Shown here in pieces: positions 1,844 to 17,444 of a DNA stretch of 26,180 nt. The stretch covers positions 1 through 26,180 of the IMG/VR virus record IMGVR_UViG_3300005613_000361, one strand, 5' to 3'. The notes beneath the pieces were generated by a model. That model ran no database searches. It saw only the letters and a list, made by a program, of their open reading frames with translations, and was not told the DNA's origin. Position 1 is the stretch's first letter. Each line of letters begins with the position of its first letter. Made by a program: the position numbers and the translations under genes. Origin of the DNA: a virus.

Positions 1844-2942
1844 CTGTCAACTCCACCGATACGCCCTGTGTGTCCTGATTCCAAGTATAGGTATAGCTAT
1901 GGACGTGCTTGGTTGTCGTATATCCCGCATAGCTGCCCGTTACAAGGTCGCCCAAGAAGTAGTCTTTGCCGAGTAGCGTCCCCGGCACCTGTAGCGGTTT
2001 GAACGTGAGCAATTCCTTGGGCGTGCCCTCAACCAAGAACGCATCACCCAGGGCGTCTAGGCCCGCCGGGTCCGGCTCTTGCCGTGCGTCTCGGAACCGT
2101 TCGCGCCGTCCCCATGGGCTGGCCGCGATGCGCACATCATCTGTGCGCCATGACCATACCCTGAATTGCTCCTCGCCTTGGCCGCCTACAAGGACGGCGT
2201 TTACCTCGCTTTGGTGGGCAAGGTTCAACTCCGGTTGCCCCATGTTGCCACGGCCAAGCGAAAAGAGAACAGTAGCCGTCCGGTCTGTGCCCCGCTGGCC
2301 TTCATACCATTTGAACTCAAAGGTAGCCGCTCCGGTGCCCACGACGTCAAAGTCGCCGCCGCCGTCTTGGCGGATCTCCTGGATGGTATCGAGCAGTCCT
2401 TGGTATTGCTTGCCCCATGGGCCACCCGCAATGCCGCCGCCCGCGTCCGCTTCGACGGTTAGACCGGCAAGCGCGCGCGCCCCTGCGCCCGGCCCCGCTT
2501 GCTCGTTGACATACTCTTTTATGACCGACTCAGCCGGTCCCGTTTTATACGCCTCGGCGCTCTGGGTATAAGCCGCGATGATCCGGCGGCCCAAGAGGTC
2601 CAGATACCCCCGACCGCCAATGTACATCATGGTACCACCTTCAACGGTGGTATAGATGCGCCGCGATAGGGTGAGGTATTCCCCCTCTTGCTGCCAATCG
2701 ATCCCGGCCTCTGAATGCCGCCGCCAGAATTCGACCTGTCCGTCTTGCTCGAATATGGCAGTCCGCGCCAAGAACTCGGTCATGGTCTCACTGGCCCGCT
2801 GCATAAACAGCAGCAGGAACGAGCCGGGCGCGTTGACCGTTCGGTTGAACGAAAAGCCAGTAAACCCGTCCTCTTGGCCCGTGAGCACACCGGCCAGTGC
2901 CCCATCTTGGCCCTTGACGCGAACTTGCCATACTTGCGGCAT
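1836..2942 (-). CDS. Tail hub protein, Siphovirus ReqiPepy6 Gp37-like
   Basis: 368 residues. The pattern fits the Gp37-like family of siphovirus tail proteins, related to baseplate hub / tail-associated proteins: an N-terminal beta-rich part with the N-R-x-V-N-A-P-G-S-F segment (~34-43), a central YIGGRGYLDLLGRRII segment (~108-123), a helical insert with YVNEQAGPGAGAR, the SEVNAVLVGGQG segment (~247-258), and a C-terminal segment with D-x-V-T-G. Family proteins sit between Dit and the fibres at the tail tip, and this one does the same. It starts two bases after the stop of the signal-peptide protein and overlaps the fibre gene by 8 bases. No peptidase or muramidase motif is seen. Confidence 0.75.
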   Translation of the reverse strand: MPQVWQVRVKGQDGALAGVLTGQEDGFTGFSFNRTVNAPGSFLLLFMQRASETMTEFLARTAIFEQDGQVEFWRRHSEAGIDWQQEGEYLTLSRRIYTTVEGGTMMYIGGRGYLDLLGRRIIAAYTQSAEAYKTGPAESVIKEYVNEQAGPGAGARALAGLTVEADAGGGIAGGPWGKQYQGLLDTIQEIRQDGGGDFDVVGTGAATFEFKWYEGQRGTDRTATVLFSLGRGNMGQPELNLAHQSEVNAVLVGGQGEEQFRVWSWRTDDVRIAASPWGRRERFRDARQEPDPAGLDALGDAFLVEGTPKELLTFKPLQVPGTLLGKDYFLGDLVTGSYAGYTTTKHVHSYTYTWNQDTQGVSVELTDA

Positions 2943-2944
2943 GT

Positions 2945-3943
2945 CTAGCTGTCCGCCGTGTAGGAGACCGTGAATCCGTCAAAGATCACGTCTGCGTTGA
3001 CCGTATCTAGAACGTCGGCCCCATTCCGAGTAAACCATAGGTAGACTACGTGCCCTACTTCGACGTCGGGCAAACTTAGCTCGGCGACCTCGGTGAGCTT
3101 ATTCTGGACCAGCGCCTCGGCAGCGGCAGGGACAGCAGGGGTGAACGTATCGTAATCCCCCCCAATCGCTCCGTGCTCTACCTGCATCTCATCGTAAATA
3201 TTCCCCGATGCCGTGGGACAATATACAACTGCCTTGGCCTTCATATCCGAGGCATAATCCGTAGGAACCGTAAAGAACCCATAGCGGAATGAGCCCGCCC
3301 CATCCGTCAACGTGCGGAGATCAAACTGCTCGACGGGGATAAATAGCGTCCTGGATCGGTTGGCTATATCGCTCGGGTTCACCGTCCAGCGACCGCCAGA
3401 CCCGAGCGGCGTCCTGTCGTCCTGGGTGATCGTCACCACGCCGCCAATAGCGACGGTGCCCTGCGCCAAGCTGATTTCCCAAGTGGTACCCGCCGTTTGC
3501 GTTACTGCCGGGATTGCCGCGACGCCGTCCGCCGATTGCAGCAGCGCGCTACGGACCGTCCGCGCGGCCCAGTCTGTCCTCAGCACCACACGCCAACCCG
3601 TCGGCCCAATGGCCGGATTGACCAACGTATGATCGACGTTGCCCGTGTTGCGATACGGGAATCCGTATACCTCGCCGCCGCCCGACGGCACGCGCAAGGT
3701 CAGCGCCCCCGGTGACGTCACCTCCAACCCATTGAGATAGTCGAGCGCTACGCCCTCGGTCGTGGGGTCCTGCGCCCAACACATCCGCTGCCACTCGGTC
3801 AGATCATCTTGGGTATAGCCGCTACTGGCCCCGTCTCCTACTCCCTCAGTTGCCCAAAAGATTGATTTCTCCACTTGTGCCTCCACTGGCGCCCCAGCCA
3901 TGACCAGAACCAAAAACACCGTCGCCACGATTCGCCCAACCAT
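2945..3943 (-). CDS. Putative tail-tip protein with predicted signal peptide
   Basis: 332 residues. The start is well fixed: AGGGGGG lies 5 bases before the ATG at 3943. Residues 1-22 look like a classical signal peptide: Arg4, a hydrophobic core at residues 5-18 (IVATVFLVLVMAGA) and a V-E-A/Q cleavage site after Ala22. The mature part opens with SIFWATEGVGDGASSGYTQ, a segment like those starting many phage tail-tip proteins, followed by beta-rich sequence with YGFPYRNTG (~93-101) and a C-terminal beta-sandwich-like half. It lies between Dit and the Gp37-like hub, so a tail-tip or baseplate role is likely. A secretion signal is odd for a protein that should be assembled in the cytoplasm; the hydrophobic segment may instead insert in the membrane or serve a different role. 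Confidence 0.65.
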   Translation of the reverse strand: MVGRIVATVFLVLVMAGAPVEAQVEKSIFWATEGVGDGASSGYTQDDLTEWQRMCWAQDPTTEGVALDYLNGLEVTSPGALTLRVPSGGGEVYGFPYRNTGNVDHTLVNPAIGPTGWRVVLRTDWAARTVRSALLQSADGVAAIPAVTQTAGTTWEISLAQGTVAIGGVVTITQDDRTPLGSGGRWTVNPSDIANRSRTLFIPVEQFDLRTLTDGAGSFRYGFFTVPTDYASDMKAKAVVYCPTASGNIYDEMQVEHGAIGGDYDTFTPAVPAAAEALVQNKLTEVAELSLPDVEVGHVVYLWFTRNGADVLDTVNADVIFDGFTVSYTADS

Positions 3944-10655: not shown

Positions 10656-11228
10656 CTATGCTACACCCCCTCGCCTATAGCCATCGAGGATCAGAGACAC
10701 GCCCGCCGGGACGCCTTGCGGCACCGTGAGGATGCCCCCCTCGTGGAATGACGCCACGTCAAACACTTGGCTGTCCTTTTGCTTGTAGAGATAGGCTGCA
10801 AGGCGCCGCGTCGCTTGCACAATGTCCTGCGGCGCCTTGAGCGAATAGCCCCAGTAGCCGCGGACGCGGATAGCGTCCTCAGAGTGTGTCGAATAGCGCC
10901 AAGAGCCCGACAAGATACGAATGCCCCAATAGGGCGGCGAGTTGGGCGTCAAGAGCTGGCGGTTTGCTACGGCCACGATTGAGCCGTCACCGTTTATGAT
11001 CTGACTGTCCTTGACTAGATCATAGTCCAGGTAAAGCACGTCGCCGTCAACGTCCCGCACGGCGTCAAACCGCCGCCAAGATACATCGACCACTCGGAAC
11101 CGCCGCCGCGTTGTCTTGTCGATATACGCCTCGGCCGCGTCTATGGCGTCGGCCAATAGCGCCTCGTCAGTGGCGGCGTCTTGGCCCAGATACGCCTTCA
11201 GGTTGGCGACGCTGCAATAGTCTCCCAT
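10656..11228 (-). CDS. Head-tail connector (adaptor) protein, HK97 gp6-like
   Basis: 190 residues starting with MGDYCSVANLKAYLG. The ATG at 11228 overlaps the TAA of the upstream methyltransferase by one base; longer in-frame starts would run into that gene. The opening helix pattern (LKAYLGQDAATDEALLADAIDAA then EAYIDKTTRRRF, here in two pieces) is the classic start of gp6-like adaptor proteins, which form the ring below the portal. The C-terminal part has QDIVQATRRLAAYLYKQKD, the usual long helix, and LILDGYRR at the end. This is the first virion gene after the sugar-modification block, so that block separates the head genes from the connector. Confidence 0.78.
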   Translation of the reverse strand: MGDYCSVANLKAYLGQDAATDEALLADAIDAAEAYIDKTTRRRFRVVDVSWRRFDAVRDVDGDVLYLDYDLVKDSQIINGDGSIVAVANRQLLTPNSPPYWGIRILSGSWRYSTHSEDAIRVRGYWGYSLKAPQDIVQATRRLAAYLYKQKDSQVFDVASFHEGGILTVPQGVPAGVSLILDGYRRGGVA

Positions 11229-12322
11229 TATCCCGCCTTTTGGCACTTCCACAACGGATGGACGCCGTGGTCCTCGATCCAACCCAACCATTCGACCGTC
11301 TCAAAGTCGCGGTCTAGGAGTGCCTGATAGTTCTCGCGCTTGTCGCGTCCTTGGCCTTCGAATAGAACGGTACCCCCGGGCGCGACCAGCTTCGGGAACC
11401 ACGGCGCATACCCGCCCGCATGGCCCAAGACGCTCAGGGCGAACACCACGCCAAACTGGCGAATGCCCGTCTGGCGCACAATCTGCCGCCGGCCCTGGGG
11501 CAGTCGCGCCTGTACAAAGTCCATATTGAAACGGCCCAACCAGTTAGCTAGTTCCCGGTTCCCCCGGCAGAATTTGTGATCCACGCCGACGGTCCGCAAC
11601 GCGCCCAAGCTGTCCGCGAGGCGCGTAACGGCGCCTTGGTTGCAGCCTAGATCGAGCACCGTTCGGCCTTCGATCATGGCGCGACTCAATCCCATACGGC
11701 CCGCTCTGTATGCGATATCTCGGAACCCCGGCACGCCTAGCTCTTCGCATGGTTGGTATCCGTTTCTCCCTTCGTGCGGCTTTTTGTGATAGATTGCCAC
11801 ATGCTTAGTCAATCGCTCTCGAATGGCGTCATGGTCCACAAAGTACATTCTGCCAAAGTCGACCAGCCACTTGCCGCGCCACTTGGGCGACCGCGCCACA
11901 TAGGCGCCGATGTTTGGCTCACTCTGGCGCAGGTCCTTGGCCGTGATCTGAAACTTGCGGGCAACCTTGACCGCCTTGGTGATATCGGCTTCACCTTGCG
12001 GCTTCACATAGTCGGTCACCTGCGCGACATGGGCGTCGTTGACTACCGCGATGCCATAGACCCGCGGCGCGACGCCATGAATCGCAAACATGTTTTGAAC
12101 CTTGGTGCTTTCGTTCAGCCGGACGCCGCCCCATTGCGGATTGTCCAGGTCCGCCTTGGGGAACACCTTGAGGCATAGACCCTTGCGGCCATAGAGGCGC
12201 GCCAGCGTTGCCGTGATTGCGATGGACTGCGCAATCCACGACTCGTTACCTACCTCGCCGCGCTCGTCGGCCTGCTCCTTGGCGCTGCTCAGAATGTTCT
12301 CACGAATAGCAATTCTTTTCAT
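11228..12322 (-). CDS. Kinase-like domain fused to SAM-dependent methyltransferase
   Basis: 364 residues, AAGGGGG ribosome site 5 bases before ATG. Residues ~45-165 look like a compact protein/sugar-kinase fold: GLCLKVF with Lys52 in the place of the ATP-binding Lys, a helix then HGVAPRV, a hinge-like AQVTDYVKP, a D-x6-N-I-G catalytic-loop-like motif at Asp130-Asn137, and VDFG at 154-157. Residues ~220-360 are a class I methyltransferase with motif I VLDLGCNQG (222-230) and GVDHK (246-250). It is a paralogue of the first ~360 residues of the neighbour at 12364-14037. Kinase-methyltransferase pairs are known in glycan chain terminators such as WbdD; here the order is kinase first. The substrate is unknown; the glycosyltransferases nearby suggest a glycan. 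Confidence 0.7.
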   Translation of the reverse strand: MKRIAIRENILSSAKEQADERGEVGNESWIAQSIAITATLARLYGRKGLCLKVFPKADLDNPQWGGVRLNESTKVQNMFAIHGVAPRVYGIAVVNDAHVAQVTDYVKPQGEADITKAVKVARKFQITAKDLRQSEPNIGAYVARSPKWRGKWLVDFGRMYFVDHDAIRERLTKHVAIYHKKPHEGRNGYQPCEELGVPGFRDIAYRAGRMGLSRAMIEGRTVLDLGCNQGAVTRLADSLGALRTVGVDHKFCRGNRELANWLGRFNMDFVQARLPQGRRQIVRQTGIRQFGVVFALSVLGHAGGYAPWFPKLVAPGGTVLFEGQGRDKRENYQALLDRDFETVEWLGWIEDHGVHPLWKCQKAG

Positions 12323-12339
12323 ACTTTCCCCCTTGCCCT

Positions 12340-12345
12340 ATCATA
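12340..12345 (-). promoter_or_regulatory. Candidate extended -10 promoter before the 12322 gene
   Basis: In the 41-base gap between two paralogous methyltransferase genes the minus strand reads TGATATGAT, a TGn extension followed by TATGAT (5 of 6 bases of the -10 consensus). No good -35 is present and the predicted leader would be only about 10 bases, so this is weak. Confidence 0.3.
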
Positions 12346-12363
12346 TCACAGAATGGACCCGTT

Positions 12364-14037
12364 TTATTGCTTTTTGAACGCAATCATACGGTCCTTGGTG
12401 CCAATACACTGCCAGTCTTGCGATGCCTCGGCCCATTCGTCAACGGCGCGCTTGACGCCATAGCCCTTTGCCTCTGGCGCTACATAGTCATCAAAGACGA
12501 CAATGCCGCCTGTCTTGACCTCCGGCAAAAAGCGCTCCATGTCCGCGCGGACGCCCTTATAGCTATGGTCGCCATCGATGAACAGAAACGCAATGTCACC
12601 CGCCGGCCATGGGTCAATCGAGACTGTCGCCGAGGGGCCAATCAGCACTTGGACCTCAAAGCCTAGACGGGTCAGATTGTATACCGCCTCTGGCCGCGAT
12701 ACTGTGTCGATGGTGTACTGGGGTCCTTGACCCGCGCAGGCCGTGGCCCATGCGACGGTGCCCGATGCGCAAAGCGTACCGATCTCGATAGCTGCGCCGT
12801 CCGGCGCCTCCTTGGCCCTATCGTACAGCCACGCCGCCTCGTTTTTGTAGAGCATGACCTGGCCATAGATAGACTGGCTCTGTTCGACGGCCCAGCGCTT
12901 TAGCGCCGCGGTCGTGGTCGGTCGCCGTCGCGGTGCCTTGGGCGGGTTTTTGTAGCAACGGAACAGACAGCGCCGGTCCTCGTCTTTGATGAACCCCGTA
13001 AGCTCGACCTGCTCAAAGTCCTGGGCCAGCATCGGGCGATAGTGGCTCTCTGGCACCTTGACGTCGCCTTCGAGCACCAGGACGCCCTTGGTCAAGTCGG
13101 CAATCCAGGATTGATAGGCGCCCTTCATGTGCTGGATGATGGCCAGAGCAAACACGATATCGAACTTGTCAATACCCGTCTGTTGCTCGATCCTAGCCCG
13201 GTCATCAGGTAGCCCGGCCTCCACAATGTCGATATTCCAATACCCAAGCCAGTTATTAACCTGCCGCCATAGACCGCACCGGGTATAGTCTACGCCCACG
13301 ACGCGCTTTGCGCCGCGACGCAATGCCTCGCGCAGCATGGTCCCGTTATTGCATCCGAGGTCTAGCACCGTCGCGCCTTTGAATTGCAGGTCATCGAGGC
13401 GCATATGCCGCAAGCGGTGGGCATGGTTGCGCTGTCCAGGGATGCCAAGCTCTACCACGTCCTGATAGCCGACGAGCGACCGGCCAGGCCCCCGGCGCCG
13501 GTGCTGGATGGCCCGCTGTAGCTTGGCCACATACCACGCCTTGTCAGAGAGGTAGAATCGGCCAAAGTCAACGAACTTGTCACCGACCCACTTAAACTCT
13601 AGGCCGACATACCTAACCGCGCGCTTGACGTCGTTGCCCTCGCCCTTGGCCGAGATGCGGTACTTGTGCAGAATCTCTTTTGCCTTCTTGGGGTTGGGCT
13701 TGCCGCTACCGTCTGCATACTCGCAGACCTGCGCCAGCGCTTCATCGTTCACGGTCACAATGTCGATCACCCGAGGGGCCAAGCCGTACCACGAAAAGAT
13801 ATTCTGGACCCGCGTTGCATCGAATAGAGAGACGCCGCCCCATGTGTACGTCTTGGCGTCTTTGCCCGCGCTGTCTTTGAACACCTTGAGGCATAGCCCG
13901 TCGCGCTCGTATGCGCTGGCCAGAATGCGGGCAATGTCCGACGATTGCACCAAGATGCAATCGAGGCCGTGGTTCTTGTGGCCCTCAGACGGCGGCGCCT
14001 GGACTACAAGGTCGGGGTTGATCTTTAGGTTTCGCAT
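12364..14037 (-). CDS. Three-domain protein: kinase-like domain plus two methyltransferase domains
   Basis: 557 residues, AGGAGG 4 bases before ATG. Residues 1-360 are a paralogue of the 364-residue neighbour: GLCLKVF with Lys51, YGLAPRV (84-90), AQVCEYADG, VDFG (156-159) and methyltransferase motif I VLDLGCNNG (224-232) with GVDYTR. The D-x6-N loop seen in the paralogue is not conserved here (DVKRAVRYVG), so this kinase-like part may be inactive. A Pro/Arg-rich linker (~364-375) leads to a second class I methyltransferase of the Methyltransf_24 kind: IEIGTLCASG (417-426), FIDGDHSYKGV (486-496) and VVFDDYVAP (513-521). The gene lies in the sugar-modification block; methylation and perhaps phosphorylation of a glycan is inferred, the substrate is unknown. 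Confidence 0.72.
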   Translation of the reverse strand: MRNLKINPDLVVQAPPSEGHKNHGLDCILVQSSDIARILASAYERDGLCLKVFKDSAGKDAKTYTWGGVSLFDATRVQNIFSWYGLAPRVIDIVTVNDEALAQVCEYADGSGKPNPKKAKEILHKYRISAKGEGNDVKRAVRYVGLEFKWVGDKFVDFGRFYLSDKAWYVAKLQRAIQHRRRGPGRSLVGYQDVVELGIPGQRNHAHRLRHMRLDDLQFKGATVLDLGCNNGTMLREALRRGAKRVVGVDYTRCGLWRQVNNWLGYWNIDIVEAGLPDDRARIEQQTGIDKFDIVFALAIIQHMKGAYQSWIADLTKGVLVLEGDVKVPESHYRPMLAQDFEQVELTGFIKDEDRRCLFRCYKNPPKAPRRRPTTTAALKRWAVEQSQSIYGQVMLYKNEAAWLYDRAKEAPDGAAIEIGTLCASGTVAWATACAGQGPQYTIDTVSRPEAVYNLTRLGFEVQVLIGPSATVSIDPWPAGDIAFLFIDGDHSYKGVRADMERFLPEVKTGGIVVFDDYVAPEAKGYGVKRAVDEWAEASQDWQCIGTKDRMIAFKKQ

Positions 14038-14045
14038 CGTGCCTC

Positions 14046-15116
14046 CTAGGGTAGCATCCCATTGTTTACGAGCAGCCTAGCTAACGTGGCCGCCGCCTTT
14101 TGCTTCGTCAGCTTGTCGTTGTCGATTATCAGGTCTGGCGCCGTCATGGGGTCAAACCGTGGCCGCCTGACCTCGCCCTCCTCATGCTTGACGTATACCC
14201 AATAGGGGTCACATATCTGGGCAATCCGGTCGCGGCGCTCTTGCGGCGAGGCGATCATATCCACAATCACACGGTGCCCCTGACGCGCCAAGCTATTGGC
14301 CACCAGCGCGCACTCTGTCGCAAAGTCGCGGTGCATCGAGGCGGGCGTTTCGTCTTTGAACAAGTCGACCCCCGGCTGCGCCGTTGCCTCGCCGCTGATC
14401 TTGTTATAGGTGTGCCGCCAGACGTCACGCCAGAGATAATGGTCATCCACAATGACGATATTCGGCCATAGGCTCTGCATATAGCGGCAAAGTGTCGACT
14501 TGCCCGCGCCCGCGCGCCCGTTGACCCAGATGATGCGCTTCGGCTCTGGTACCACTAGGCCCCCGTTCATAATCGCCTCCCACTGATCCTCTGAGCATAT
14601 CTTTTGCAGCTTGGCCCAGATTGCGACCTTCTTTTTATCTGTGTATCCGCGGTCGAGCAGCCGCCACTTGTAAGGCGAGTAGTATTGATGCGTCTTGCCG
14701 TATGTCGTCGTGGGGTCGAAAAACGTCCAGACCCCAATATCCCATCCGCGCCAGCGATGCGTTGGGTCGCGGTACGCCTTGTAATAGTTCCACTGGGGAA
14801 CCTTGATCATGACCTTCCCGCCGGGCCGAATGATGCGCCACAGCTCGTTCATGCTCTCTTGGAGCGTCGGCGCGATATGCTCCAAAACAGCCCACGCATG
14901 AACCCGCGAGAATTGATTGTCCTGGAATGCCGCCCATGGGCGCTCGTCTAGGTTCCAAGCTATGTCTATGTGCTCACTGTGGACCGTGATATCGTGGTTG
15001 GTCCATCCAGGCATAGCAGCCTCACCCGCGCCTAGATTGAGCCGACGCTGCCAGTTAGCAGGCCGCACTTCCCACGGGTCGAGGCCTAGATGCTCTCTCA
15101 CCGATTGTCCCGCCAT
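14046..15116 (-). CDS. Methyltransferase fused to P-loop kinase (APS-kinase-like)
   Basis: 356 residues, GGAGG 5 bases before ATG. Residues ~20-150 are a class I SAM methyltransferase: LNLGAGE (26-32), an acidic strand end DIAWNLDERPW, VLEHIAPTLQESMNELWRII (78-97) and RPGGKVMIKVP, the Methyltransf_11 pattern. Residues ~194-350 are a separate P-loop domain: IIWVNGRAGAGKST with Walker A at 200-208, VIVDDHYLWRDVW, and VIVDMIASPQERRDRI followed by WVYVK, the pattern of adenylylsulfate kinase and related small-molecule or polynucleotide kinases. The fusion and the neighbouring glycosyltransferases suggest modification of a sugar by methyl and phosphate groups, but the substrate is inferred. Two arrays of 9-bp repeats lie directly upstream, one of them touching the ribosome site region. 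Confidence 0.72.
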   Translation of the reverse strand: MAGQSVREHLGLDPWEVRPANWQRRLNLGAGEAAMPGWTNHDITVHSEHIDIAWNLDERPWAAFQDNQFSRVHAWAVLEHIAPTLQESMNELWRIIRPGGKVMIKVPQWNYYKAYRDPTHRWRGWDIGVWTFFDPTTTYGKTHQYYSPYKWRLLDRGYTDKKKVAIWAKLQKICSEDQWEAIMNGGLVVPEPKRIIWVNGRAGAGKSTLCRYMQSLWPNIVIVDDHYLWRDVWRHTYNKISGEATAQPGVDLFKDETPASMHRDFATECALVANSLARQGHRVIVDMIASPQERRDRIAQICDPYWVYVKHEEGEVRRPRFDPMTAPDLIIDNDKLTKQKAAATLARLLVNNGMLP

Positions 15117-15124
15117 ACTCGCCT

Positions 15125-15239
15125 CCAGTGTATTTAGTGTAATTAGTGTAATCGTTCTGGAAGAATCCGTATATTTATCTGCTGGAATAGAATACGTATG
15201 TTTCTGGCTACACTACACTAGTTACACTAACTACACTAA
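15125..15239. repeat. Two inverted arrays of three tandem 9-bp repeats
   Basis: Plus-strand units at 15125-15151 are CCAGTGTAT, TTAGTGTAA, TTAGTGTAA. Units at 15213-15239 are CTACACTAG, TTACACTAA, CTACACTAA, the same motif inverted; a fourth partial unit overlaps at 15208-15216. The arrays would pair at 22 of 27 positions around a 61-base AT-rich centre that includes the palindrome ATACGTAT (15192-15199). They occupy the only gap (15117-15249) in this part of the gene block. Operator, iteron-like site, or RNA hairpin are all possible. Confidence 0.75.
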
Positions 15240-15249
15240 CTTGATTAAC

Positions 15250-15306
15250 CTAGAGCTTCTTAGACCACTTCCGCCACAACCCGCGTCCGTCGTGGTTCAC
15301 CGTCCA
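15250..15306 (-). pseudogene. Remnant of the original 3' end of the glycosyltransferase gene
   Basis: On the minus strand these bases encode WTVNHDGRGLWRKWSKKL and a TAG stop. This is exactly the last 18 residues of the glycosyltransferase that ends 450 bases upstream at 15755, but 12 of the 18 codons differ and all differences are silent. The remnant uses G/C-ending codons like the rest of the phage. It has no start and overlaps the last codons of the HNH gene, whose TGA lies inside it. It is best read as the displaced native gene end. Confidence 0.9.
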
Positions 15307-15758
15307 GGTTCTAAAATAGGAAGCTGATAATCACAATCCACTACATCGCCCCGATTTTGGCGCCAGTGCAATTTACGGTGGCAATTTGCACATAATACAT
15401 CGCATTTGGCTAGTTCTTCTTCTATTTCTGTAGCACTGTGCCCTACCAAGTCTGGAGCATTAAAATTGAACAGCTTTGTAGAGGGGTCGCGATGGTGAAA
15501 GACCAGACATGCAGGATGTCCCTCTCCACATTCTTGACATACTCGACCTCCAAGAAGTTGCAATTTCTGGGATAGCCGATGCTCATTCTGATATGCCTTA
15601 GCCCGCTTGCGAATCGCCGTTTTGTTACGAGCGTGGTACTCTTTAGACCGGGCATTGCTACAATCTTTACAATAGGTGCCTAGACCGTCGCGCGATGCTC
15701 TGTCTTTATAAAACTCGCTCTTTGGTTTGCTTTGGCCACAACGCGAACAGCGTTTCAT
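15297..15758 (-). CDS. HNH homing endonuclease
   Basis: 153 residues from the ATG at 15758, which overlaps the stop of the glycosyltransferase as ATGA. An in-frame TTG at 15782 behind AAGGGGA is an alternative start. Residues ~4-37 form a zinc-binding module (CSRCG ... YCKDC), and the HNH core follows: VCQECG, LVFHHRDP with the catalytic-type His pair, and CDVLCANCHRKLHW at the end. This is a common layout of small phage HNH enzymes that make site-specific cuts. The gene is AT-richer (about 40-45% GC in the parts counted) than its neighbours (near 60%). Its last codons run into the old glycosyltransferase end. Together with the recoded gene end upstream it forms a homing unit; the likely target is the uninterrupted glycosyltransferase gene. 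Confidence 0.88.
   Translation of the reverse strand: MKRCSRCGQSKPKSEFYKDRASRDGLGTYCKDCSNARSKEYHARNKTAIRKRAKAYQNEHRLSQKLQLLGGRVCQECGEGHPACLVFHHRDPSTKLFNFNAPDLVGHSATEIEEELAKCDVLCANCHRKLHWRQNRGDVVDCDYQLPILEPGR
15301..15310. repeat. 10-bp direct repeat at right-hand (downstream) end of homing unit
   Basis: Minus strand AACCTGGACG, identical to 15902-15911. In the native gene end it encodes Trp-Thr before VNHDG. Confidence 0.8.
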
Positions 15759-16582
15759 AGTTTTTTGGACCACTTTCTCCAAAGTCCCCTTCCGTCATGA
15801 TTTACTGTCCAAGCTCGAGCAGCAGTTGCAAAATGCCGAACACCACAGCTACGTCCGATCTCTTGTGGATGATGGGCAAAAGTATTCCACTCAGTACCGA
15901 GCGTCCAGGTTTTGACCGGCGATTGGTAAAGCGCCCGAATCATGCTCTGCTGGTCGGTATGCTGCCAATGATGCCATTCGGCGTAGAACAGATCCAAGAA
16001 CGCATGGACACGCTCATTGCGAGCGAATGACCAAACGCCGCCCGCGGGCTGGAGCCAATGATTGCCGTGCAGTAGCTTGTTTGTGACGTGGTTCTCCGGT
16101 TTATACTTGGCTCTCTGCGCATGGCGCACAAGCGGCCCCTGCGGCGGGCTCATGGTGAGCACCATATCCCAACCGTCAACCAGCGGCTCAAAGAACAGGC
16201 CGAGGTCACAGTTGACCAAGATATCCGCATCCAAGTATAGCACATATTGCCAGTCTTTAGGTGCCAAATCCCAAATGCGCGTCTTTTGCCGCCGCGCTCG
16301 CCGGTCGCGCATCGCGTCAGGGAGTATAATATCAGTACCCCGGAGCACCTTGTGAAATATGTCAGGCAACACGTCGAATCTAGGCGCTGGCGTCGGGATC
16401 GTCTTGTCATCGCGTATCTTTTCAACAGGCTTACGATAGTCCTCTTTGAACCCCTCACAGACTAGACAGACCGGATAGCTTGGGCTGTACTTGTGAATGG
16501 TCCGTATCAGGTGATAGGCGCAGTCGTGCGCCTGCTTGCCGTAGGCCACGATATAGACGCCGCGATCCTTGTATACTCCCAC
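15755..16582 (-). CDS. GT-A fold glycosyltransferase with recoded 3' end
   Basis: 275 residues from a GTG with GAGGAG 7 bases upstream. The N-terminal strand GVYIVAYGKQA, the helix CAYHLIRTIHKY and the metal-binding D-x-D in VLYLDADILVN (Asp118-Asp120) are hallmarks of GT-A sugar transferases. PAGGVWSFARNERVHAFLDLFYAEW (residues ~179-203, given in parts) with DQQSMIRAL is the acceptor-side pattern shared with the proteins at 17441-18130 and 18043-18690, so the three are paralogues. From about residue 228 to the end the codon usage changes to A/T-ending codons: this part is the recoded tail delivered by the homing unit. The protein appears full length. Donor and acceptor sugars are unknown. 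Confidence 0.85.
   Translation of the reverse strand: MGVYKDRGVYIVAYGKQAHDCAYHLIRTIHKYSPSYPVCLVCEGFKEDYRKPVEKIRDDKTIPTPAPRFDVLPDIFHKVLRGTDIILPDAMRDRRARRQKTRIWDLAPKDWQYVLYLDADILVNCDLGLFFEPLVDGWDMVLTMSPPQGPLVRHAQRAKYKPENHVTNKLLHGNHWLQPAGGVWSFARNERVHAFLDLFYAEWHHWQHTDQQSMIRALYQSPVKTWTLGTEWNTFAHHPQEIGRSCGVRHFATAARAWTVNHDGRGLWRKWSKKL
15902..15911. repeat. 10-bp direct repeat at upstream end of homing unit
   Basis: Minus strand AACCTGGACG, covering Thr225-Trp226-Thr227 of the glycosyltransferase; the same 10 bases occur at 15301-15310. Codon usage changes right after it. Confidence 0.8.
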
Positions 16583-16583
16583 C

Positions 16584-17444
16584 CTATAGCTCCTCTATTG
16601 CCCGTTTCCACCCCTGCGCCCACGCGCGCGGGGTCCGCCGAATAACTAGCGCCTGCAATTCATCGGGCGTCATGGGCGAATTGAGCGCCGCCTTGACCGC
16701 CGCTATAAGTGAATCTAAGTTGCCCCGCTCGTATCGCTGGATACCTGAGACGTGGGGCAGTTCTGACTCGATGCCTACGCCCTTGCCAATGACCACGGGC
16801 CGGCCACAGCCTAGCGCCTCAAGCACCGTCACGGGGCCGCCCTCGATAGTTGACGTGCTCACGTATACGCTCAAACTACGGTAGTACGTCGCCATGTCGG
16901 CCCATGAGTAGAACTTGCTAGGGATGGGCCAGGCGTGCGAGTTACTCATGGGCTTCCCACTAGCGCATATATCCCATTTGTTGCTCTTGGCTCTGTACAG
17001 GTCTAGGGCCAGCTTTTCACCCTTGCGCCCGCCTCGATAGACTGTGCCGCCTAGACCGACCTTGGGCCGCTTGCGCTCGCGTCGTGGCTCTGGCGTGAAT
17101 ATCTTTGTCTCATAGCAGACCGGGACCGCGCGCGCGTGTGTTTCTTGTGAGAGTTCGCCAGCGTAGCGCTGCGCCATGCAGACGCATAGGTCCAGATGGT
17201 CCGCGGCGCGCCGCCACATCTTGCCCTTTGCGCCGCCTTCTCGATGCGTCATGAACCCCACGGCCTTGGTCTGCTTGGGGTGTCTATCTGGTCGAAAGAA
17301 CACGTAAGGAAAGTAGATATTGACCTCTGCCATCGGGTTGGGCCCGCGCGTCACGGCCCACCCATTGTAGCGGACTAGGTGCCTGGCCAGTCGAGCAATG
17401 ATCCAATCGCTCTTGTGGTCGCTGCATACGATGTTTACCTTCAT
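16584..17444 (-). CDS. GT-B fold glycosyltransferase (GT4-like)
   Basis: 286 residues beginning MKVNIVCSDHKSDW. The ATG at 17444 overlaps the upstream TGA as ATGA and has GAGG 5 bases upstream, so the longer in-frame start at 17495 is not preferred. The C-terminal half has the GT4 signature: STIEGGPVTVLEALGCGRPV with the E-x7-E pair (Glu201 and Glu209), followed by IGKGVGIESELP, and KVGLGGTVYRGGRKG (~128-142) for the donor-binding start. The N-terminal half is short, so the acceptor domain is compact. The next gene starts two bases after the stop, so it is co-translated with the GT-A genes on either side. Confidence 0.82.
   Translation of the reverse strand: MKVNIVCSDHKSDWIIARLARHLVRYNGWAVTRGPNPMAEVNIYFPYVFFRPDRHPKQTKAVGFMTHREGGAKGKMWRRAADHLDLCVCMAQRYAGELSQETHARAVPVCYETKIFTPEPRRERKRPKVGLGGTVYRGGRKGEKLALDLYRAKSNKWDICASGKPMSNSHAWPIPSKFYSWADMATYYRSLSVYVSTSTIEGGPVTVLEALGCGRPVVIGKGVGIESELPHVSGIQRYERGNLDSLIAAVKAALNSPMTPDELQALVIRRTPRAWAQGWKRAIEEL

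Follow-up and report, generated by a model that had tools for sequence, protein, structure and literature searches.

An old question about free-standing homing endonucleases is how their genes can lie within or next to a gene that they cut and neither damage it nor have the site cut again. Introns and inteins solve this by splicing. A different arrangement is found in the 26,180-base record of an uncultivated phage analysed here (the window, meaning that whole stretch of DNA), in which an HNH endonuclease gene lies between two versions of the 3′ end of a glycosyltransferase (GT) gene. An earlier note on this locus, made from the sequence alone, had proposed that the GT end was rewritten with silent codons, that the displaced native end was left behind the HNH gene, and that the whole resembles the WHO elements of yeasts. 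We set out below what the locus contains, where its parts are likely to have come from, and how far a homing mechanism is supported.

Anatomy of the glycosyltransferase and HNH locus

The features referred to throughout are as follows (all coordinates are those of the window).

15755..16582, minus strand: GT gene, GT8-like, with a GTG start, complete and in frame; full-length relatives are 52-73 % identical (aa)
15755..15900, minus strand: 3′ tract of the GT gene read as replaced (foreign) on the basis of GC3, with its upstream edge at ~15884-15900
15297..15758, minus strand: HNH endonuclease gene (153 aa), with an N-terminal zinc ribbon and a C-terminal HNH domain
15250..15309, minus strand: remnant, read as the displaced native GT 3′ end; the last 18 codons are certain at 15253-15306, with a TAG stop at 15250-15252
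15902..15911, minus strand: left border copy of the 10-bp direct repeat AACCTGGACG, at the edge of the A+T-rich cassette
15301..15310, minus strand: right border copy of the same repeat, at the other edge

The GT protein gives only a weak Pfam match (Glyco_transf_8) and ends in WTVNHDGRGLWRKWSKKL. The ATG of the HNH gene starts at 15758 and overlaps the GT stop codon TGA (15755-15757), whilst the HNH stop codon (15297-15299) falls inside the remnant, which consists of only the last 18-20 GT codons directly behind the HNH gene. The remnant, at 15250-15306(-), specifies the same 18 residues as the GT end, plus its TAG stop (57 nt). Of the 18 codons only 15 could differ silently, and 12 do so between the two versions, through 15 changes in 54 nt, 12 of them at third and three at first codon positions, and not one residue is altered. 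When 15 random changes were simulated 200,000 times, every outcome altered the peptide, with 9.4 changes on average and never fewer than 4; furthermore, a search for the 18-residue peptide in all six frames of the window gave a next-best match of only 6/18. As such, the pairing of GT end and remnant is real rather than a product of chance, and both the architecture and the silent-only divergence are shown directly. The ACC (Thr) codon just upstream of the shared part in the remnant remains ambiguous, relatives having Ala or Ser there. A tblastn alignment that lengthened the remnant to 33 residues was rejected, as the added similarity is weak, lies outside the HNH frame and crosses a stop; 18-20 codons were taken as real. 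In the intergenic sequence behind the remnant (15117-15249) we observed a repeated TTAGTGTA on one side and inverted copies of ATTACACTAA on the other.

The HNH protein belongs to PHROG 2255 (E=2.7e-34) and is related to HNH genes of Felix O1, crAss001 and Myrna. All of the residues invariant in 43 relatives are intact in it (C4, C7, C30, C33, C74, C77, H89, C119, C123, C126 and H127), and its AlphaFold (AF2) model is confident (pLDDT 90.8). Structural matches of the C-terminal domain to solved HNH nucleases were weak: the best, to the Gme HNH nicking endonuclease, had a VIA Z of 4.2 (64 residues, rmsd 3.8), others being GVE2 HNH, T4 endonuclease VII and Cap5. Foldseek results for the model were likewise weak, with PacI as the best hit (E 0.52). 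A search of positions 15000-16700 against Rfam returned no match at E<=1, and thus no group I ribozyme core or other RNA element was detected around the HNH gene.

Base composition and relatives of the glycosyltransferase gene

The GT gene is not uniform in composition. Its GC3 is 0.68 over codons 1-225 and 0.34 over the last 50 codons, with a change point at codons 228-232 (~15884-15900) that was not equalled in strength in any of 2,000 permutations. The tail value lies below all 6,616 fifty-codon windows in the 20 other genes of the window (minimum 0.38) and is close to that of the HNH gene (0.39), whereas the remnant, at 0.89, resembles the native GT body and not the cassette. No depression of tail relative to body was seen in relatives without the HNH gene, where tail/body values are 0.62/0.67 (L001), 0.80/0.80 (L013), 0.68/0.69 (L014), 0.76/0.76 (L020) and 0.46/0.52 (L016). 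As tail and HNH gene share one composition and the remnant is like the native genome, tail and HNH gene are of one foreign origin. Their foreign composition is shown; that they arrived together from a related phage of lower GC, displacing the native end, is likely. By this reading the gene is native over codons 1 to ~228 and replaced over the rest, so that the foreign tract begins ~30 codons upstream of the 18-residue shared part. The assignment of remnant as native and tail as foreign is inferred from composition and does not rest on phylogeny. Exactly two occurrences of the 10-mer AACCTGGACG exist in the window, one at each cassette edge; this may be a trace of microhomology, but the shared Trp-Thr makes part of the repeat likely in any case.

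Nine viral loci were found to encode the GT, seven of which read through its end. In none of these seven was an HNH gene or a remnant present at the GT end, and later relatives also lacked the HNH gene. In five of them (L014-L017 and L020) a methyltransferase/kinase gene directly follows the GT gene, the same gene that comes after the remnant in the window, and in L001 and L013 other genes lie between the GT gene and this downstream gene. The nearest relative, L001 (GT protein 73 % identical), has neither HNH gene nor remnant. Over the last 18 codons it differs from the two versions to the same degree (16 and 17 of 54 nt), and it is therefore too distant to tell phylogenetically which end is native. 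No matches to the GT were found in 50,697 records of cultured phages, nor were relatives found in cellular genomes, and viral sequence searches did not recover the donor phage of the A/T-rich tail. The boundary that the HNH gene occupies in the window is taken in L001 (5804-6511) by a gene for a DNA methyltransferase, which overlaps the GT end; this boundary thus takes different inserts. Elsewhere in the window, at 11228-14037, two adjacent homologous methyltransferase genes match each other's relatives, and sit in a glycosyltransferase/methyltransferase block that is conserved in relatives.

Several claims of the earlier note can be judged on these data. Its description of 18 shared end residues with 12 of 18 codons silently different was correct to the base, as was its placing of the HNH gene exactly between the copies, with an ATGA overlap at the start and a stop inside the remnant. 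Its extent for the recoded part (18 residues) held only in part, since by GC3 the foreign tract is ~30 codons longer. Neither observation that it named as a potential refutation was made: the HNH-less L001 does not carry an A/T-ending tail (GC3 0.62), and the remnant is not the end of a separate complete paralogue, as only 18-20 codons exist. The wording 'rewritten' or 'recoded' needs correction, in that the end descended from a divergent allele and was not rewritten.

Related HNH genes, a mirror-image case and tRNA loci

In order to place the window among its relatives, the DNA on both sides of the HNH gene was compared for 190 HNH ORFs (175 loci) and then for 86 more, with some contigs in both sets; an earlier, smaller screen had covered 102 HNH ORFs. 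In the 190-ORF screen the window scored 117, whereas none of 296 mismatched pairs exceeded the highest null score of 63. Most of the other high scores were rejected as HNH-HNH or tRNA-tRNA similarity, and that of L231 was due to an identical non-coding repeat; at L231:2890-3410 the HNH gene lies between two direct copies of an identical ~45-bp non-coding sequence. Only two protein-gene cases, the window and L117, were found among 276 HNH ORFs, showing that, within this sample, gene-end replacement is uncommon even in this HNH family, the members of which mostly adjoin tRNAs.

The second case carries the closest relative found of the window HNH (43 %).

L117, 164-1172 (IMGVR_UViG_3300022538_000124): mirror-image case, with a stranded native start, an HNH gene and a terS-like gene with a foreign start

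Here the HNH gene overlaps a neighbouring frame at each end, namely, at its start, a short frame, MARPKKDLGVAFAIVAKGDR, closed by a stop codon and, at its stop, the start of a terS-like (small-terminase-like) gene that begins MARPRKDLEKAFSLVAKDL. Over its first ~80-104 nt this terS-like gene goes with L192, and beyond that with L188 (Fisher p=1e-4). Compared with the starts of L188 and L187, the stranded start agrees at 40 and 38 of 51 nt and the gene's own start at only 33 and 32, and relatives lack an HNH gene at this site. We consequently regard L117 as an independent case and a mirror image of the window, in which the 5′ end was replaced and both recipient-like and donor-like lineages are visible. 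This conclusion rests on mosaic phylogeny: the L117 score (60) is only at the upper edge of the null (maximum 63), and the case carries weight because of its position and mosaic ancestry, not its score. HNH genes beside terminases can also be packaging genes, which calls for caution.

Many relatives of the window HNH adjoin tRNAs, and in 50 of the 190 ORFs the next tRNA starts <=5 nt from, or inside, the HNH end. The HNH stop often lies ~9-10 nt into the tRNA, where it would use the conserved U8-A9-G10 as a stop codon; loci with a tRNA at the HNH end include L025, L026, L027, L036, L105, L110, L116, L118 and L124. Same-type tRNAs flank the HNH gene on both sides in L027, L105 (crAss001), L124 (three times), L140 and L177, but as tandem tRNAs of one type are common, this is possible evidence of replacement and no more than suggestive. 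Two arrangements are more specific.

L089, 2843-3444 (IMGVR_UViG_3300043178_000075): complete tRNA-Arg(ACG) and HNH gene between two orphan tRNA halves
L085 (near-identical L083 and L181), 2690-3215: complete tRNA-Pro(TGG), HNH gene and orphan tRNA 3′ end

When joined in silico, the orphan halves of L089 form another tRNA-Arg(ACG); thus, an HNH of the same family came with a whole replacement tRNA. The same probably applies to L085, where a CGGAGCG stretch immediately before the complete tRNA is complementary to the acceptor strand of the orphan 3′ end. At L140:3908-4530 and L168:2930-3470 the HNH gene appears to split a tRNA without a complete same-type replacement beside it. The replacement principle may therefore extend to RNA genes, but because other tRNA loci seem simply split, we do not generalize it firmly.

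Proposed replacement homing, rival explanations and known systems

The explanation that best accounts for the locus, and which we consider likely, is that of a free-standing homing cassette, built on an HNH gene, which substitutes its own version for the end of the gene it targets; cutting of the GT site by the HNH protein, resistance of the replaced end and movement by this route are all inferred. The mobile unit would consist of a divergent, synonymous GT 3′ tract (~45 codons) together with the HNH gene. During a mixed infection the HNH protein would cut the native GT end near codons 257-258, where the stranded piece begins, and the break would be repaired on the DNA of the donor phage, so that its GT tail and HNH gene are copied in. 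The copied tract would run upstream to about codon 228, and the downstream join would fall in the native end, leaving the old end stranded. The GT protein would stay complete, as the residues encoded by the donor tail are unchanged, and the silent differences would abolish the cleavable site and so prevent re-cutting. The protection from the endonuclease that the earlier note attributed to the recoded end likewise remains an inference.

The most serious rival is phage mosaicism with a passive HNH gene, which we consider unlikely. It supposes recombination within the GT gene, with the donor's HNH gene lying downstream and an illegitimate right-hand crossover stranding the old end, such that the HNH gene neither caused the replacement nor gains from the tail. 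Phage genomes are indeed mosaic, the 10-bp AACCTGGACG at both cassette edges could be crossover microhomology, and different genes occupy this boundary in relatives, such as the DNA methyltransferase of L001. In disagreement with this, however, the breakpoints lie exactly at both sides of an intact HNH gene, the closest HNH relative (L117) shows the mirror arrangement in an unrelated gene, and the family's ties to replaced or split tRNAs would not be predicted by passive hitchhiking. The same gene order would also result had the GT end been duplicated locally in tandem, an HNH gene then entered between the copies, and one copy been altered by drift or by selection for recoding, but we consider this very unlikely. 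A released copy would gather amino acid changes, whereas none of the 15 nucleotide changes alters the protein (0/200,000 simulations), and the low GC3, which resembles that of the HNH gene, already sets in ~30 codons before the duplicated part. Moreover, an identical protein with near-saturated silent change means that both copies were until recently maintained by selection, each within a phage of its own; this speaks against duplication in place and in favour of a replacement that came from a divergent relative.

The window finding rests on one metagenomic contig, a 26,180-base record that is probably a fragment, and an assembly chimera of two strains, one with the GT and HNH genes and the other with the uninterrupted gene, might be suspected. 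We consider this very unlikely too: the sequence common to the HNH/remnant junction and the left edge is only 10 bp long, shorter than usual assembly k-mers; the reading frame, ATGA overlap and silent-only divergence are biological; and the independent contig L117 shows the same logic. Finally, the remnant might be the downstream exon of a group I intron, or belong to an intein or translational-bypass element. HNH genes are often found in phage introns, as is generally known (PMC2988022), but this reading is all but excluded, given that the GT gene is already complete upstream, so that splicing would duplicate 18 residues, and that the HNH gene has its own start and stop. The earlier claim that the unit is distinct from introns and inteins thus held, no intron having been found and the GT being complete.

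In the yeasts Torulaspora and Lachancea, WHO elements occupy FBA1, and for one of them, WHO6, the enzyme cuts the native allele and the replaced allele resists (PMC7282813). The likeness in anatomy proposed previously held point by point, including the displaced host 3′ fragment downstream of the endonuclease gene (15250-15306 in the window), although that fragment is ~400 bp in WHO and ~60 nt here. The window element is nevertheless not a member of the WHO family: WHO proteins derive from a VDE-like intein, have a zinc finger and act in meiosis on a nuclear gene of yeast, whereas the protein here is a small HNH of PHROG 2255 in a phage glycosyltransferase gene. Nor is WHO the earliest parallel: the architecture was described long before in fungal mitochondria, where mobile endonuclease ORFs generated gene hybrids in Allomyces (atp6) and Glomus (atp6, atp9, cox2 and nad3) (PMC3630166). 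These share with the window the order of in-frame foreign C-terminal tract, endonuclease ORF and displaced native C-terminal tract; in Glomus atp6 the inserted and native tracts are 63.5 % identical in nucleotides and 91 % in amino acids, with mostly synonymous divergence (PMC3630166). Fungal hybrids use LAGLIDADG or GIY-YIG enzymes rather than HNH, and their endonuclease ORF is sometimes fused to the host gene. Because WHO and the fungal hybrids use other, unrelated nucleases, the likeness is one of convergence in logic, not membership.

Among phages, the T4-like free-standing endonucleases Mob and Seg are intronless and promote their own inheritance with flanking DNA; some of their genes overlap an upstream stop (mobE/nrdA) or sit among tRNAs (segB) (PMC2988022, PMC13096335). 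They are described as lying between genes and as cutting at sites that are hundreds to thousands of bases distant (PMC2988022). A replaced gene end with a stranded native end is not described in the relevant sections on these enzymes (PMC2988022, PMC13096335), nor is a replaced gene end in those of a survey of phage nuclease genes (PMC10448857). More broadly, no phage report of one was found in the partial, open-access literature searched, the same scope within which the earlier note's statement that it knew of no such description stands.

The window, L117 and L089 together suggest a third solution in phages, so far known from fungi, namely synonymous replacement of the broken part. Replacement homing would account for gene ends at which mosaicism is abrupt and silent and for some of the HNH genes in phage tRNA arrays, and as the native sequence is kept beside the nuclease, target sites become predictable. 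If unrelated nucleases have come to it independently in yeast nuclei, fungal mitochondria and phages, this would be a clear case of convergence. A bolder reading, which we would neither favour nor dismiss, is that PHROG-2255-like HNH genes are widespread phage replacement homing elements. The targets on this reading, held with equal reserve, would be a coding 3′ end (window), a coding 5′ end (L117) and tRNAs (L089 and L085), each element carrying a divergent functional replacement. Were it true, no introns or inteins would be needed, and phage gene ends and tRNAs would be continually exchanged between lineages. For the PHROG 2255 members examined, among them those of Felix O1, crAss001 and Myrna, the usual position is between tRNA genes, and gene-end replacement is not annotated. 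In keeping with a free-standing phage homing endonuclease, the window HNH gene is optional, being absent from the same site in the relatives read through the GT end.
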